A stretch of DNA of 64,000 nt from Acinetobacter pittii. GTDB taxonomy: Bacteria; Pseudomonadota; Gammaproteobacteria; Pseudomonadales; Moraxellaceae. The position numbers and the translations under genes are program-made. The notes beneath the pieces are model-generated. The model did no database searches. It was not told where the DNA came from and saw only the letters and a program-made list of their open reading frames with translations. This document shows positions 15,173 through 64,000 of this stretch, piece after piece; positions within the stretch are counted from its first letter, which is position 1, and the number at the start of each line of letters is the position of its first letter. The stretch spans positions 3,814,889-3,878,888 of the forward strand of contig NZ_CP139249.1 in the NCBI RefSeq assembly GCF_034064985.1, read 5' to 3'.

Positions 15173-15966
15173 TCAAAGCTGAAAGTATTGTTTCACGTGG
15201 AACGAAGCAAGTCGGGCAGCGTCTGCTGCCTTGGATTTTCCCTATTGTTCTATTGATTGTTTGGCAAATTGCCTCAAGCTCGGGTCTTTTAGAGAACCGT
15301 ATTTTGCCTGCACCCACTGCTGTAGTTTCCGCTTTTTGGCATCTACTGGTGAGTGGCGAACTTTGGCAGCACGTTAAAGTCAGTGCAGGGCGTGCTTTAC
15401 TGGGGTTACTGATTGGCGGTGGCTTAGGTTTGTTATTGGGTCTACTCAACGGATCTTCACGATTCGCCTCTACCCTGCTCGATACGACCTTACAAATGAT
15501 TCGTAACATCCCAGCTTTAGCCCTCATTCCACTCGTCATCTTATGGTTCGGTATTGATGAAACAGCGAAATTATTTTTAGTCGCAGTAGGTGTTTTCTTC
15601 CCTATCTATATCAACACTTATCACGGTATTCGGTCAGTTGATCCTCAATTAATTGAGATGGGTAAAAGCTACGGACTTTCGCGTTGGCAGCTCTATAAAG
15701 AAATTATCCTACCGGGTGCGATGCCTTCTATTTTAGTAGGTTTACGCTTTGCTTTAGGTTTGGTTTGGGTATTGCTCATTGTTGCTGAAACCATTTCAGC
15801 TCAAGCAGGTATTGGTTATATGACTATGAATGCACGTGAGTTTTTACAAACGGATGTCGTTCTGGTCGGTATTCTTCTTTACGCCTTATTAGGCAAACTA
15901 GCAGATGTTTTAGCACAGCTTTTAGAACGCTATTTACTACGTTGGCACTCTGGATATCAGAAATAA
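15169..15966 (+). CDS. ssuC: sulfonate ABC transporter permease
   Basis: This 265-residue inner-membrane permease has about six hydrophobic spans and the EAA-type loop for ATPase contact ([31 protein letters not shown], about 163-193). The start overlaps the ssuD stop (ATGA), and ssuB follows 13 bp later. Together with SsuB it imports alkanesulfonates delivered by the SsuA proteins. Unusual: codons 7-12 of the gene contain a near-perfect parS sequence (15189-15204), listed separately. Confidence 0.95.
15189..15204. promoter_or_regulatory. parS-like ParB-binding site inside ssuC
   Basis: TGTTTCACGTGGAACG matches the bacterial chromosomal parS consensus TGTTNCACGTGNAACA at all defined positions except the last. 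It lies in the coding sequence for residues 7-12 of SsuC. Its origin-proximal position and the two further sites in this window support a real segregation site. Confidence 0.7.
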
Positions 15967-32251: not shown

Positions 32252-32267
32252 CGTTCCACGTGAAACA
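32252..32267. promoter_or_regulatory. parS-like ParB-binding site, intergenic
   Basis: CGTTCCACGTGAAACA matches the parS consensus TGTTNCACGTGNAACA except for the first base. It lies between the esterase and cyclophilin genes, inside a longer imperfect inverted repeat (TTAGTCC...GGACTAA). Confidence 0.75.
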
Positions 32268-42197: not shown

Positions 42198-43490
42198 TTA
42201 TTGCATCATTTTTTGCGCTTGTTCTTGACGGAATGCGCGTAAAATTTGTTGCCCTGCCCGTCCCGTTGGGTTTAAACCTAAACGAGTTTGTTCTTGACGA
42301 ATAGCTACGCGGGTTTTATCTCCAATAAGGCCGTCAACTGCACCAATATCATAGCCACGGTTAATCAAAAACTGTTGGATTTCACGACGTTCTGCACGTG
42401 AAGTTCCCGGATCATCAGTGGGCCAAGACGCAACAAATGGACCAGCACCTTTTAAACGATCAGATAAATGTGCAATCGCAAGCCCATAACTTTCCGCAGC
42501 GTTATAGCTGTAAATAGCATCAAAATTCTTAAATACTAAAAATACTGGACCATTTACACCTGCAGGTGCCATTAAACCCGCTGAAGTATTGCCAGATAAA
42601 GCCCCTTGAACAAGTGGAGAATCATCAATTCGGGTCACCCCTCGTGCACTCCAGCTACTTAAAGCTTTCTTTGAACGTCGCCCTTCTCCATCAATTGACA
42701 TACCTTGGGGAACTTTGACTTCAAAACCCCACGGCATTCCTGTTTGCCAACCTGCTTTATTTAAGAAATTAGCAGTTGAAGCCAGTGCATCAGCTGTACT
42801 AGAAACTAAATCTCGACGACCATCTCCATCAAAATCAACCGCTAAACGTTCATAAGTAGACGGCATAAATTGGGTGTGACCAAATGCCCCAGCCCATGAA
42901 CCCTTTAATTGATCTTCGGTTAAGTCACCACGTTGTAAAATACGCATGGTGGCAAAGAATTCAGTACGGAAATAACTTTGTCGACGCCCTTCGCAACTTA
43001 AAGTTCCGAGCGCTTGTAATAAAGGATATTTTCCAGAAATATCACCAAAATTACTTTCAACCCCCCACACTGCCACAATTGTTTCTGGTGGTACACCGTA
43101 AGTTTGAGAAGCACGATTTAAAACATCGCGATGTTGCGCCAGTTTTTGTTTACCAAGCTCAACGCGCTCTTCATCAACTAGACCAGAAAGATAATCCCAA
43201 ATTGGTGTCGAAAATTCTGGTTGATAGTTTAATTTATCAATAACTGAATAATCTGGGGTCAAGTTTTGGGTATAACGATCATAAGTTGTACCCGATACTC
43301 CAGCAGCAATTGCTTGAGAACGTAAATTTGCCAAACAGCTTTGGAAATTATTATTAGGTGTATAATCTTCACTCGTCACTACTGGAACAGTAGCACTGCT
43401 AGATATTGTAGAACCATTAATTACGAGCTCTGCTTGAGCCTGAGTCATCGCTAAAAATACAGAGCCAACAATACAAGAAAAACGTCGCAT
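42198..43490 (-). CDS. lytic murein transglycosylase (MltB family)
   Basis: This 430-residue exported protein has a signal peptide (MRRFSCIVGSVFLAMTQAQA). The MltB-type lysozyme-like domain (about 45-345) has catalytic Glu in GVESNFGD and FGHTQFMPSTYERLAVDFDGDGRRDL. A C-terminal peptidoglycan-binding domain (about 360-422: IQQFLINRGYDIGAVDGLIGDKTRVAIRQEQ) follows. It cleaves MurNAc-GlcNAc bonds to 1,6-anhydro ends. There is no lipobox, so it is periplasmic and soluble, closer to soluble MltB-like enzymes. Its start abuts the origin-like repeat region (43491-44175), which must also contain its promoter. Confidence 0.93.
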   Translation of the reverse strand: MRRFSCIVGSVFLAMTQAQAELVINGSTISSSATVPVVTSEDYTPNNNFQSCLANLRSQAIAAGVSGTTYDRYTQNLTPDYSVIDKLNYQPEFSTPIWDYLSGLVDEERVELGKQKLAQHRDVLNRASQTYGVPPETIVAVWGVESNFGDISGKYPLLQALGTLSCEGRRQSYFRTEFFATMRILQRGDLTEDQLKGSWAGAFGHTQFMPSTYERLAVDFDGDGRRDLVSSTADALASTANFLNKAGWQTGMPWGFEVKVPQGMSIDGEGRRSKKALSSWSARGVTRIDDSPLVQGALSGNTSAGLMAPAGVNGPVFLVFKNFDAIYSYNAAESYGLAIAHLSDRLKGAGPFVASWPTDDPGTSRAERREIQQFLINRGYDIGAVDGLIGDKTRVAIRQEQTRLGLNPTGRAGQQILRAFRQEQAQKMMQ

Positions 43491-43507
43491 ATTATCCTAG
43501 TTCAATT

Positions 43508-43730
43508 TTTAAATTTAAATTTGTAAGTACCATACCATTATGAGTCCAAAATTTCAGAGAGAAAACGTAAATTTGAATTCATAATCTCTACTTTAAATTC
43601 ATTCCCCATGTTTTAAATTCAAACTTTCTACTTTATTTTTAAATTTAAAAATTTCTTAATCCAAATTATAAGTTTTGAATTCAAAAAATAACCTCAAGTT
43701 TAAATTCAAAAACACTTCTTTAAATTTAAA
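43508..43730. repeat. 12-mer repeat block, left of DnaA-box pair
   Basis: Six exact and two near copies of TTTRAATTYAAA (TTTAAATTTAAA, TTTAAATTCAAA, TTTGAATTCAAA) occur in 223 bp, at starts 43508, 43572, 43592, 43612, 43638, 43674, 43699 and 43719. Confidence 0.85.
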
Positions 43731-43747
43731 CCGTAAATAATACTTTT

Positions 43748-43767
43748 TGTGGATAACTTTATCCACA
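43748..43767. promoter_or_regulatory. inverted pair of perfect DnaA boxes
   Basis: TGTGGATAA and TTATCCACA separated by CT form a 20-bp near-palindrome of two consensus DnaA boxes, at the centre of the repeat region. Confidence 0.85.
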
Positions 43768-43861
43768 ATACAGCAAAAAGCTTCTATTTCTTAATGCTAT
43801 TCCATATTCTCTTATTATTTATTAAATATTAACACCCAGCACAATCACAGCAATCCGCACT

Positions 43862-44124
43862 TTTAAATTTAAAAATCAGCCAAAATTTTTAAATTCAAAA
43901 CCTCATACCAATAGACTTCTATTTTTGAATTTAAAAACCCACCTACCTTTCTCATTTAAATTTAAAAATACTTTTGTGGATAACTAATTTTAAATTCAAA
44001 AACAACCAAGACTGCCTTTTATGGTTTTAAATTCAAATTACAGAAGCTTTTTTAAATTCAAAATTTCCAATTAAAGTTATCCACACCCCAAAATATGCAT
44101 ATTCTACTATTTTTTAAATTTAAA
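43862..44124. repeat. 12-mer repeat block, right of DnaA-box pair
   Basis: Eight exact copies of TTTRAATTYAAA in 263 bp (starts 43862, 43888, 43924, 43955, 43989, 44026, 44051, 44113), interleaved with two further DnaA boxes at 43975-43983 and 44077-44085. Confidence 0.85.
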
Positions 44125-44130
44125 AAATAA

Positions 44131-44158
44131 AAAAAAGCGATCCGAAGATCGCTTTTTA
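44131..44158 (-). terminator. terminator of purE-purK operon
   Basis: AAAAAGCGATC / GATCGCTTTTT (loop CGAA) with a minus-strand T-run, 18 bp past the purK stop. Confidence 0.87.
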
Positions 44159-44175
44159 GAAAATTAAAAATACTT

Positions 44176-45297
44176 TTAGAGGGTCATATCTGCTGTTAAA
44201 GCAAGTGGTTCTGGCAAAATTTCTGCCAATTGACGGCATAAATTCGTCAATTCATTACTATCCACAGGCATTAAAGTGATATGGCCTAATTTACGGCCAG
44301 CACGTTCTGACTTGTTATAAAGATGCAGATGAGCACCATTTAAGGCAAGTACATCCTCAGTTTTAGGATGTTGACCAATAATATTGATCATAACCGTTGG
44401 GCGAACAACTTCTGTTGAGCCTAATGGTAAGCCTGCAACAGCTCGAATATGGTTTTCAAACTGAGAACAAACCGCGCCTTCAATTGACCAGTGGCCGGAG
44501 TTATGCACACGTGGTGCCATCTCATTTGCACACAAGCCTTGTTCTGTCACAAATAGCTCGAGAGTCAGCACACCAACATAGTTAAGATGATTCAACAAAC
44601 GCGTAATGTAGTCTTGAGCAATTGGTTGTAAAGCTTCACTATTCGGTGCAGGAACAATTGAATGCGATAAAATACCATTGTGATGATGGTTTTCAGCTAA
44701 TGGCCAAGTCTTCACTTCACCATTTTGGCCACGTACTGCAATAATCGAAACTTCGCGAGAAAATTTCACAAAGCTTTCAGCCACTAAGCTTTTTGCAGGA
44801 CCAAGTTCAGCCCACGCCGTATCAATCTGGTCTTCTGAACGAAGTACAAACTGACCTTTACCGTCATATCCACCAGTTGCAGTCTTAAGCACAATCGGTA
44901 AACCAAGCTCAGCAACAGCCTTTTTCAAGCTTTCTAGACTATCTACAGCACGATACGGCGCTACAGGAATAGTAAGCTCATCAAACAATGCTTTTTCTGA
45001 CAAACGATTTTGTGCAGTTGCTAAAGCAACACGGGGAGGGTGCAATGCTTTGGTTTGTGTTAAAACATCCACATCTTCAACGGGCGTATTTTCAAACTCA
45101 AGACTAAAAACATCAGCACTTTCAATAAACTGCTTTAAACCTTGCTCATCTTGGCTAGAAAAGACTTGGCCTAAAACACCTGCTGGACAATCTGTATTTG
45201 CTTCAAAAAAAGTACACTGAATATTTAATGGTAATGCTGCTTGAGCCATCATTCGGCCCAGTTGCCCACCACCAAAAATACCGATAGTTTTATCCAT
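44176..45297 (-). CDS. purK: 5-(carboxyamino)imidazole ribonucleotide synthase
   Basis: This 373-residue ATP-grasp enzyme has an N-terminal pre-ATP-grasp loop (GIFGGGQLGRMMAQAA, 6-21), the ATP-grasp core with LKTATGGYDGKGQ (about 137-149) and EMAPRVHNSGHWSIEGA near 258-274. It makes N5-CAIR from AIR, ATP and bicarbonate in purine synthesis. It is encoded 9 bp after purE, the usual order; both are needed for the CAIR step. Length is slightly above E. coli PurK (355). Confidence 0.96.
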   Translation of the reverse strand: MDKTIGIFGGGQLGRMMAQAALPLNIQCTFFEANTDCPAGVLGQVFSSQDEQGLKQFIESADVFSLEFENTPVEDVDVLTQTKALHPPRVALATAQNRLSEKALFDELTIPVAPYRAVDSLESLKKAVAELGLPIVLKTATGGYDGKGQFVLRSEDQIDTAWAELGPAKSLVAESFVKFSREVSIIAVRGQNGEVKTWPLAENHHHNGILSHSIVPAPNSEALQPIAQDYITRLLNHLNYVGVLTLELFVTEQGLCANEMAPRVHNSGHWSIEGAVCSQFENHIRAVAGLPLGSTEVVRPTVMINIIGQHPKTEDVLALNGAHLHLYNKSERAGRKLGHITLMPVDSNELTNLCRQLAEILPEPLALTADMTL

Positions 45298-57880: not shown

Positions 57881-58849
57881 TTATGCCAATGTTTCACGTG
57901 GAACATAAGCTGGTTTTAGAGTATTAATTTCTACTGAAATATGCACAATTTCATCATGAATGGATAAAGCATGACGAATCTGATCTGCGGTTAAAGAAAT
58001 ATCATCAGTTTCGAGCGCCAAAATACAAGAAAACTTACCTTTCGCGACCTTCCAAACATGAATATCCGTAATTTCAATATGTTTAGGAAACTCAGCAATG
58101 ACTTCACGGATCTCTTCAACTACCGGATGATCCATTTCTGCATCAAGAAGAGTTTTTCCTGTCTCTTTCATTAATCCAAGAGACCATTTTGCAACCAAAA
58201 TAGCACCTAAAATTCCTAAAAGCGCATCTAAAAAATCCCATCCGAAATATTTACCTGCGAAAAGCGCAATAATTGCAAAAACAGAAGTTACTGCATCTGC
58301 AACTACATGTAAAAAAGCAGCTTTTTGGTTTAAATCATGGTGGTGATGACCATGTTCATGCTCGTGATGGTGATGGTGATGGTGATGGTGATGGTGCCCA
58401 TCATCGTGAAGTAACCATGCGCAAATCAAGTTAATGACCAAACCTAAAATTGCAATCGGAATCGCTTCATTATAAAAAATTTCAACTGGATTAAATAAAC
58501 GTTGTATCGACTGAAACGCCATAAAAATGGCGACAACCATCAACAAAATTGCACTGCTATAACCCGCTAAAATCTCGATTTTCCACGTTCCGAAACTAAA
58601 CCGACGATCTTTGGAATAATGACGAGCCGCGCGATAGGCAAAATAGGCTAAACCGAGAGCCAACATATGGGAACTCATATGCCAACCATCAGCCAGAAGC
58701 GCCATTGAATTGAAAAACCATCCACCGAATATTTCTAACACCATCATTGATGCCGTTAAAATCGTTGCAATCAAAATACGTTTTTGTGCAAGTGGATTTC
58801 CTTCATCAAACTGATGTTGATGATGACGTGATACACTATGATCCTGCAT
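57881..58849 (-). CDS. dmeF: cation diffusion facilitator, DmeF/CzcD-like metal exporter
   Basis: This CDF exporter of about 322 residues has six membrane spans, with the metal-site motif ADGWHMSSHM (about 51-60) in span 2 and HVVADAVTSV in span 5. The loop between spans 4 and 5 is extremely His-rich (HDDGHHHH... with 22 His in about 27 residues). It exports divalent cations; cobalt/nickel (DmeF) is favoured because the divergent regulator is RcnR-like. Zinc (CzcD/ZitB) is possible. The start at 58849 (MQDHSVSRHH) is chosen, with one five codons earlier possible. A parS-like sequence lies in its last codons. Confidence 0.88.
   Translation of the reverse strand: MQDHSVSRHHQHQFDEGNPLAQKRILIATILTASMMVLEIFGGWFFNSMALLADGWHMSSHMLALGLAYFAYRAARHYSKDRRFSFGTWKIEILAGYSSAILLMVVAIFMAFQSIQRLFNPVEIFYNEAIPIAILGLVINLICAWLLHDDGHHHHHHHHHHHEHEHGHHHHDLNQKAAFLHVVADAVTSVFAIIALFAGKYFGWDFLDALLGILGAILVAKWSLGLMKETGKTLLDAEMDHPVVEEIREVIAEFPKHIEITDIHVWKVAKGKFSCILALETDDISLTADQIRHALSIHDEIVHISVEINTLKPAYVPRETLA
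57890..57905. promoter_or_regulatory. perfect parS site inside metal exporter gene
   Basis: TGTTTCACGTGGAACA is a perfect 16-bp match to the bacterial parS consensus (TGTTNCACGTGNAACA). It lies in the final codons of the dmeF-like gene, about 6 kb from the dnaA-proximal region. Confidence 0.85.
58364..58393. repeat. (GTGATG)5 hexamer repeat
   Basis: Five tandem GTGATG units on the plus strand encode the His-His run of the exporter on the minus strand. Slippage by whole units keeps the frame and changes the length of the His loop. Confidence 0.9.
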
Positions 58850-63469: not shown

Positions 63470-64000
63470 TATATAACTTTAAAAGTTATACACAAAGTAA
63501 TTGTCTATTTTTATTAGAACTTTTAATATATACACACCTTATATACATATTTATCAACAAAACAAGATACCATCTTGGTTTGGATTTGCTGTATTTGAAT
63601 TTAAATTCATATTTTGCAGTTATCCACAAAAGATCTCCACCCTATTAAATAAATTCAAATTTAGAAATTTAAATTTATTCTTATTAGGGATAACTTTTTC
63701 TGTGGATTTCGCACTTTTAAATTTAAAAAACATATATTTGGGTTGTTGATAACTCTGTTTTTACTATATTTATGGATTGTGGATAAGTTTATGTGTTAAT
63801 TTATCCACAGGTTGTGCAAAAAGTTATGCACAAGCCGATTTGAATTTAAATTTATTCACAAGAGATTTCTTTTTAGACAAAATCAAACGAAATCGTCATG
63901 ACAGATGTGGATAACTTGGTTAGAATGGCGACCCCTTCTCATCAGGAAGGGTTAATCTTTAGATTATTTGAATTTAAAAACGCAGAAATAGGGGATACAC
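63470..64000. other. rpmH-dnaA intergenic origin region (oriC candidate), left part
   Basis: Four perfect DnaA boxes (TTATCCACA) lie at 63620-63628 (plus), 63778-63786 (minus), 63801-63809 (plus) and 63906-63914 (minus). One-mismatch boxes lie at 63486, 63551, 63744, 63824 and 63852. Four exact copies of TTTRAATTYAAA start at 63594, 63716, 63839 and 63967 (spacing 122, 123, 128 bp), with degenerate copies at 63600, 63648 and 63668. The rpmH side and the expected dnaA start just beyond the edge match the usual gammaproteobacterial oriC location. The dnaA promoter is probably in the last 100 bp. Confidence 0.85.

Follow-up and report, generated by a model that had tools for sequence, protein, structure and literature searches.

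The intergenic region between mltB and purK in the stretch of DNA analysed here (64,000 nucleotides, hereafter the window) combines palindromic AamA methylation sites with DnaA boxes. Both motifs are conserved in relatives and both are also found in oriC. On the whole it is somewhat probable that this region, the array, is a satellite of the origin and the principal AamA methylation array on the Acinetobacter chromosome, and we infer that its function would be to tie AamA methylation to DnaA control. A preliminary description of the locus lacked the main point, namely that the repeated 12-mers are AamA methylation sites common to the array and to oriC.

A cluster of 12-mers and DnaA boxes between mltB and purK

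The array (positions 43491-44175, unstranded; 685 bp, 76.6% A+T) fills the gap described earlier between a lytic transglycosylase gene and purK, and both assignments are borne out by domain matches. The mltB-like lytic murein transglycosylase gene (42198-43490, minus strand) has SLT_2 and PG_binding_1 domains, and its counterpart in CP040042.1 is annotated as a lytic murein transglycosylase; purK (44176-45297, minus strand) has a PurK match. At the end of purK, a terminator-like hairpin on the minus strand, AGCGATC-CGAA-GATCGCT (44136-44153), was read off the sequence by eye. Four exact DnaA boxes (TTATCCACA) were found, as had been claimed: an inverted pair 2 bp apart at 43748-43756 (minus strand; kept in 8/8 close relatives) and 43759-43767 (plus strand; 6/8), followed by boxes at 43975-43983 (minus strand; 5/8) and 44077-44085 (plus strand; 7/8).

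The A+T-rich repeats noted before are likewise present, but their number, given as sixteen, has to be corrected to 14 exact copies of TTTRAATTYAAA and one copy with a single mismatch. The exact copy closest to mltB (43508-43519, unstranded) is 17 bp from the mltB ATG and is kept in 8/8 close relatives. Five more make up a left block at 43612-43730 (unstranded; starts at 43612, 43638, 43674, 43699 and 43719), and eight a right block at 43862-44124 (unstranded; starts at 43862, 43888, 43924, 43955, 43989, 44026, 44051 and 44113). The mismatched copy, TTTGAATTCATA, is at 43572-43583 and reads TATGAATTCAAA on the minus strand, which is motif II of a published methylome study (PMC10483419, cited here, like the other papers below, for part of its text). 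Dinucleotide shuffles of the 685 bp (n = 2000) contained on average 0.038 12-mers (maximum 2) and 0.007 boxes (maximum 1).

The window ends where contig C1 ends, and dnaA starts at C1:1. Provided that the contig is circular, the array is 19.8 kb from dnaA, in agreement with the distance of about 20 kb from the dnaA-proximal origin proposed before. That origin, oriC (63594-63978, unstranded, between rpmH and dnaA), has four 12-mers, at 63594, 63716, 63839 and 63967, and four exact boxes, at 63620 (plus strand), 63778 (minus strand), 63801 (plus strand) and 63906 (minus strand). The array is therefore the more repeat-dense of the two, as had been stated, with 14 exact 12-mers against four, and holds 14/18 of the exact 12-mers that the two regions have together; the number of exact boxes is the same.

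The preliminary description had also proposed a genome-wide count of motif clusters. Over 3,886,502 bases there are 44 exact DnaA boxes, four of them in the array, and at least three within 1 kb are found at three places: the array, oriC and a trio at C1:607678. The 32 exact 12-mers are distributed as 14 in the array, four in oriC, four at C1:229807-230100 and ten single copies. An Rfam scan at gathering thresholds gave no match within the array, and on this ground the array was ruled out as an RNA element.

The 12-mers are identical to the AamA methylation target

The 12-mer of the array is identical to TTTRAATTYAAA, which has been proposed as the target of the orphan adenine methyltransferase AamA in A. 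baumannii ATCC 17978 (PMC10483419). SMRT sequencing of that organism grouped the AamA-methylated sites in 12 regions. The two densest are region 1, with 29 and 28 methylated sites in runs 1 and 2, and region 2, at rnpA-dnaA, with nine in each run; none of motifs I to VI was methylated in an aamA mutant (PMC10483419). A second group found the related motifs TTTRAATTNA and TNTNAATTNAAA to be partly methylated in all the A. baumannii strains tested (PMC10287943), and a third listed TTTRAATTYAAA among methylated motifs (PMC13227989).

When the motif variants of PMC10483419 were counted per strand, 29 AamA strand-sites were predicted in the array and nine in oriC. Two of the 29 are strand-sites of TTTGAATTCAAA, a variant that the motif table of PMC10483419 does not list; without them the figure is 27. 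Two of three A. baumannii records likewise gave 29 array and nine oriC strand-sites, and the third gave 25 and nine. PMC10483419 reports motif II a single time, in region 1, and motif VI in region 2; the window has one copy of each, motif II in the array and motif VI in oriC. The annotation of CP040042.1 runs lytic transglycosylase, array, purK and, further on, rnpA, L34 and dnaA, with 19.8 kb from array to dnaA. The A. baumannii records are 72-83% identical to the array of the window, two of them across only 52% of its length, while the PurK of the window shares 99% identity with those of Acinetobacter sp. WC-141 and A. pittii. Because the site counts of 29 and 9 and the placement of motifs II and VI match, the array is very probably the orthologue of AamA region 1, with the same motif, and hence methylated in vivo; oriC corresponds to region 2.

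The third 12-mer cluster (C1:229807-230100) is in, or overlaps, a coding sequence that we read as a SAM-methyltransferase gene, and a mirrored copy of its spacing is present in another genome (G084, C1:1081066-1081359). It fits region 12 (smtA) of PMC10483419.

Four A. baumannii records with the 12-mer pattern are filed as plasmids in PLSDB (NZ_CP064203.1, NZ_CP077849.1 and NZ_CP104448.1, of 3.7-4.1 Mb, and CP040042.1, of 538,712 bp). CP040042.1 contains dnaA, rpmH (50S L34) and gyrB, and the four are taken as chromosomal sequence misfiled as plasmids. The triple-12-mer pattern also occurs in three stretches of a viral collection, two of which (L228 and L230), read in part, resemble A+T-rich low-complexity sequence. 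A mobile or viral origin of the array was rejected, since the plasmid-collection matches look chromosomal and these two viral stretches look of low complexity.

AamA and paired 12-mers mark one clade

A PF02086 search of the genome to which the window belongs returned one protein, of 430 aa. Its gene is flanked by what we take to be nrdR-ribD on one side and riboflavin synthase on the other. On the basis of the PF02086 match and of this neighbourhood the protein was assigned to AamA; nrdR is named among the neighbours of three MTase genes in PMC10483419. With the sole PF02086 protein of the genome so assigned, the search yielded no Dam methylase of GATC, and Dam is reported to be absent from the genus Acinetobacter (PMC10287943). 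SeqA (PF03925) had no match in this genome either; among 14 control genomes that of E. coli matches.

Among 348 Moraxellaceae genomes, AamA was found at E < 1e-200 in 173/175 Acinetobacter and in 4/4 genomes of a sister genus (g3), and weaker matches in 13 further genomes. The two Acinetobacter genomes without it are G030, which is 65% complete, and G115. In the latter a full ribD, the neighbour of AamA in the genome of the window, was likewise not found, the best hit being weak and partial. This points to an assembly gap, and we doubt that AamA has genuinely been lost there. Close 12-mer pairs have almost the same distribution: 173/175 Acinetobacter, 4/4 of the sister genus and 4/169 other genomes, the last with one pair each, a level also reached by a reversed-pattern control. 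Paired 12-mers were thus present in 176/177 genomes with AamA at E < 1e-200 against 5/171 without, and four of those five have a single pair. Because the total number of 12-mers does not exceed the reversed-pattern control in every genome, and in several is close to it or below (15 against 19 in G050; 28 against 23 in G149), it is clustering and not number that constitutes the signal. AamA and the 12-mer pairs mark one clade and may go back to a single evolutionary event.

Loss of aamA was reported to raise dnaA expression 1.5-2.4-fold and to slow growth; complementation recovered neither growth nor the dnaA level (PMC10483419), so that these effects cannot be cleanly attributed to AamA. Over-expression of AamA also slows growth (PMC9769888), and AamA has been linked to altered drug susceptibility in a published account of epigenetic gene regulation (PMC10483419).

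Conservation of the array

Among the named relatives, the best 80 of 204 loci include 77 with mltB downstream of purK, and 12-mers are present in 76 of these. For the comparison with shuffled sequence we used the 71 mltB-purK gaps shorter than 1 kb together with the window. In these 72 regions exact 12-mers number 738, where 2.19 would be expected, and exact boxes 144, where 0.63 would be. One region is without a 12-mer and three are without an exact box; at least one exact box is present in 69/72 and at least two in 58/72. The comparison across Acinetobacter that had been proposed for this locus therefore shows both motifs to be kept far above spacer: over eight close relatives, identity to the window is 0.95 for 12-mer columns, 0.944 for boxes and 0.72 for spacer. 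Of the 37 substitutions within the 12-mers of these relatives, 23 are at the degenerate R and Y positions. When the 112 12-mer cells were scored and 12 gapped ones dropped, 77 of the remaining 100 were identical, 16 differed by an R/Y transition only and seven broke the motif. This bias is what would be expected if AamA recognition is the thing conserved.

A 12-mer is found 12-18 bp ahead of the mltB start in 68/76 loci. Open reading frames lie within the array, or separate most of it from mltB, in eight loci (L064, L067, L079, L083, L089, L217 of G093, and L190 and L192 of the sister genus), and the array is retained in all. Since the position of the leader 12-mer is fixed while intervening reading frames leave the array intact, the alignments suggest two parts, a leader site that possibly controls mltB and the array proper.

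The distance from array to dnaA, computed for 16 genomes, is 13-39 kb in 14 of them. In the other two, G140 and G093, purK no longer adjoins; the array has stayed upstream of mltB, 0.1 and 1.4 kb away, and is 53 and 124 kb from dnaA, respectively. Across oriC from the array, downstream of gyrB, the same two genomes have a small 12-mer cluster with two DnaA boxes (G140, C1:6827-7001, L220; G093, C1:7103-7379, L219). The corresponding stretch of the window's own genome (C1:1-12000) has no exact box and no exact 12-mer.

No array was found in G020, in which all 15 12-mers were located. Genome-wide, no more than one forward 12-mer pair was found in each of G131, G148 and G026, which have zero, zero and two 12-mers beside purK, respectively. 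All four genomes carry AamA, and the oriC 12-mers are kept in the three that were viewed (G020, G131 and G026). From these sequences the array seems dispensable over evolution; no loss of the oriC sites was seen. In G076 (2.4 Mb) the array is neither beside purK nor within 20 kb to the left of dnaA. At most one forward pair was found in 7/175 Acinetobacter genomes (G026, G030, G098, G131, G148, G163 and G172), all of 2.9 Mb or less. Small genome size alone does not predict loss, however, because five genomes of 2.4-2.8 Mb (G012, G045, G128, G142 and G168) keep 6-10 forward pairs. In eight other Moraxellaceae no 12-mer and no exact box was found downstream of purK; mltB is absent there too, so this is not an equivalent gap.

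Both motifs are conserved in oriC

The region upstream of dnaA was compared in 17 Acinetobacter genomes, four of the sister genus and nine others from eight genera, picked by hand, mostly for having few contigs. In the stretch ahead of dnaA, taken to at most 1.3 kb, 17/17 Acinetobacter carry between one and five exact 12-mers, and 4/4 of the sister genus carry two or three. In the other Moraxellaceae, 8/9 have no exact 12-mer within 1 kb upstream of dnaA and the ninth has one. A 12-mer starts 30-39 bp ahead of dnaA in 10/17 Acinetobacter. Over six close relatives, identity in oriC is 0.983 for 12-mers, 1.0 for boxes and 0.857 for spacer, all four boxes being unchanged in 6/6.

Alternative explanations

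The main rival explanation, which we regard as unlikely though it deserves serious consideration, is that the array serves to regulate mltB, alone or together with purK, AamA methylation governing how a regulator binds and hence how much transglycosylase is made. It is consistent with the leader 12-mer in most loci, with the persistence of the array upstream of mltB in G140 and G093 despite the departure of purK, and with the report that a gene called mltA changed 1.6-fold in an aamA mutant and was restored by complementation (PMC10483419). However, 14 sites across 600 bp seem too many for one promoter, and the array persists despite reading frames inside it or before mltB in eight loci. Regulation of mltB also leaves unexplained the boxes present in nearly all of the 72 regions and the occurrence of the same 12-mers in oriC. 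Less likely still is that the array, as a methylated site near the origin, serves not the control of initiation but segregation, nucleoid anchoring or the marking of new DNA for repair. A methyl-mark common to array and oriC and the usual proximity of the array to dnaA would suit such a role; the conserved DnaA boxes would not, and no parS-like site (TGTTTCACGTGAAACA-like, up to three mismatches) was found in 43491-44175. The array was accordingly rejected as a parS site or centromere. Elsewhere in the window, parS-like sites are present at 57890-57905 (one mismatch), 15189-15204 (two) and 32252-32267 (two), and are possible ParB sites near oriC.

The preliminary description had offered the array as the true oriC or as half of a bipartite origin, a proposal for which the four DnaA boxes, the high A+T content and the lack of genes speak but which we consider very improbable. 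Cumulative GC skew, followed over 136 kb (from 64 kb left to 72 kb right of dnaA, circularity assumed), reaches its minimum at 63,500, by rpmH-dnaA; the skew is -0.025 from array to oriC and +0.068 beyond dnaA on the right. Since this skew, local as it is, puts the start at rpmH-dnaA, a second origin is unlikely. The rpmH-dnaA region moreover has its own four invariant boxes, whereas the array is lost or nearly so in G020, G131, G148 and G026 and displaced in G140 and G093; on skew and relatives together the array was set aside as a second origin. That the array is a functionless chance pile-up of A+T-rich sequence has almost nothing to recommend it beyond the base composition of the region: shuffled sequence falls far below the numbers observed, and conservation is much higher in motif columns than in the spacer.

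A possible methylated satellite of the origin

If the array is a satellite of the origin, the events might run as follows. Once oriC has fired, the fork would soon copy the array, about 20 kb away, giving two sets of hemimethylated sites and a doubled number of DnaA boxes. The array would bind DnaA, and would draw AamA, or a putative reader of the hemimethylated site, away from oriC and the dnaA promoter. Such competition, for AamA and for DnaA alike, should be expected because the array has most of the near-origin AamA sites and adds boxes. The result would be a longer marking of oriC and dnaA as just replicated, and a damping of re-initiation. In effect this would combine sequestration of the Dam/SeqA kind with titration of the datA kind, through a different methyltransferase and a different site and without SeqA. 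More tentatively, as a possibility that we would not call probable, the array could be a methyl-sink and DnaA-sink that times the hemimethylation of oriC and dnaA, probably via a putative reader of the 12-mer, in a clock that evolved independently of Dam/SeqA in Acinetobacter and its sister genus.

Several observations count against the satellite. One or two exact boxes in 57/72 regions, and none in three, make a weak case for DnaA titration. G020 and G131, with none beside purK, and G026, with two left, keep AamA and the oriC 12-mers without the full array, and in G140 and G093 the array is far from dnaA. The dnaA and growth effects were unrestored by complementation, SeqA is absent, and the co-distribution of enzyme and sites amounts to one clade. 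Finally, the fixed 12-mer before mltB and the restored mltA change fit promoter control.

The Dam/SeqA system of E. coli resembles the proposed arrangement in having an orphan adenine methyltransferase with sites in oriC and upstream of dnaA. The E. coli chromosome has thousands of GATC sites; the AamA site, in contrast, is not GATC and occurs 32 times in this genome. The genome with the array is without SeqA, and most of its near-origin sites lie beyond oriC, in the proposed satellite. A further likeness is that a methyltransferase mutant alters dnaA expression (PMC10483419). Because SeqA is absent and AamA is the only PF02086 protein, the array does not belong to the Dam/SeqA system.

The suggestion that the array is a DnaA-control locus like datA or DARS of E. 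coli stays plausible. Like these, the array gathers DnaA boxes between genes at a distance from oriC (for near-origin DnaA-box density, see PMC12371093), and exact boxes recur in 69/72 regions. Unlike them, it is dominated by methylation sites. The IHF consensus WATCAANNNNTTR has no match in 43491-44175, degenerate sites being possible, and an IHF-dependent datA core was rejected for this reason. The two also differ in position, datA being more than 450 kb from oriC (PMC4451416) and the array about 20 kb.

For the limiting of initiation to once per cycle in gammaproteobacteria that have neither Dam nor SeqA, the array is a concrete candidate in a clinically important genus; it also offers a comparison of the clade with genera that lack both enzyme and sites. 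We know of no link to methylation for the DnaA-box clusters of Bacillus. Those clusters, intergenic like the array and distant from the origin, occupy eight regions per chromosome (PMC4451416).

The methylation hot spot is already published. The sections of PMC10483419 covered treat AamA sites as promoter switches and do not link region 1 to DnaA boxes; its main text mentions neither oriC nor purK. In the literature covered on Acinetobacter replication and AamA, which takes in few subscription journals, we found no description of a DnaA-box array near purK. If the array is indeed a satellite of the origin, the published account of epigenetic gene regulation by AamA would become at least partly one of replication control, in which the origin and its satellite are the two places of densest methylation in the genome.

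Inverted pairs of exact DnaA boxes with an 8-nt spacer (TGTGGATAA-N8-TTATCCACA) were seen at C1:506795, 607678, 3404597 and 3564674, near gene ends, and one of the four has a third box 5 nt further on. These pairs could be hairpin terminators or DARS-like DnaA sites.
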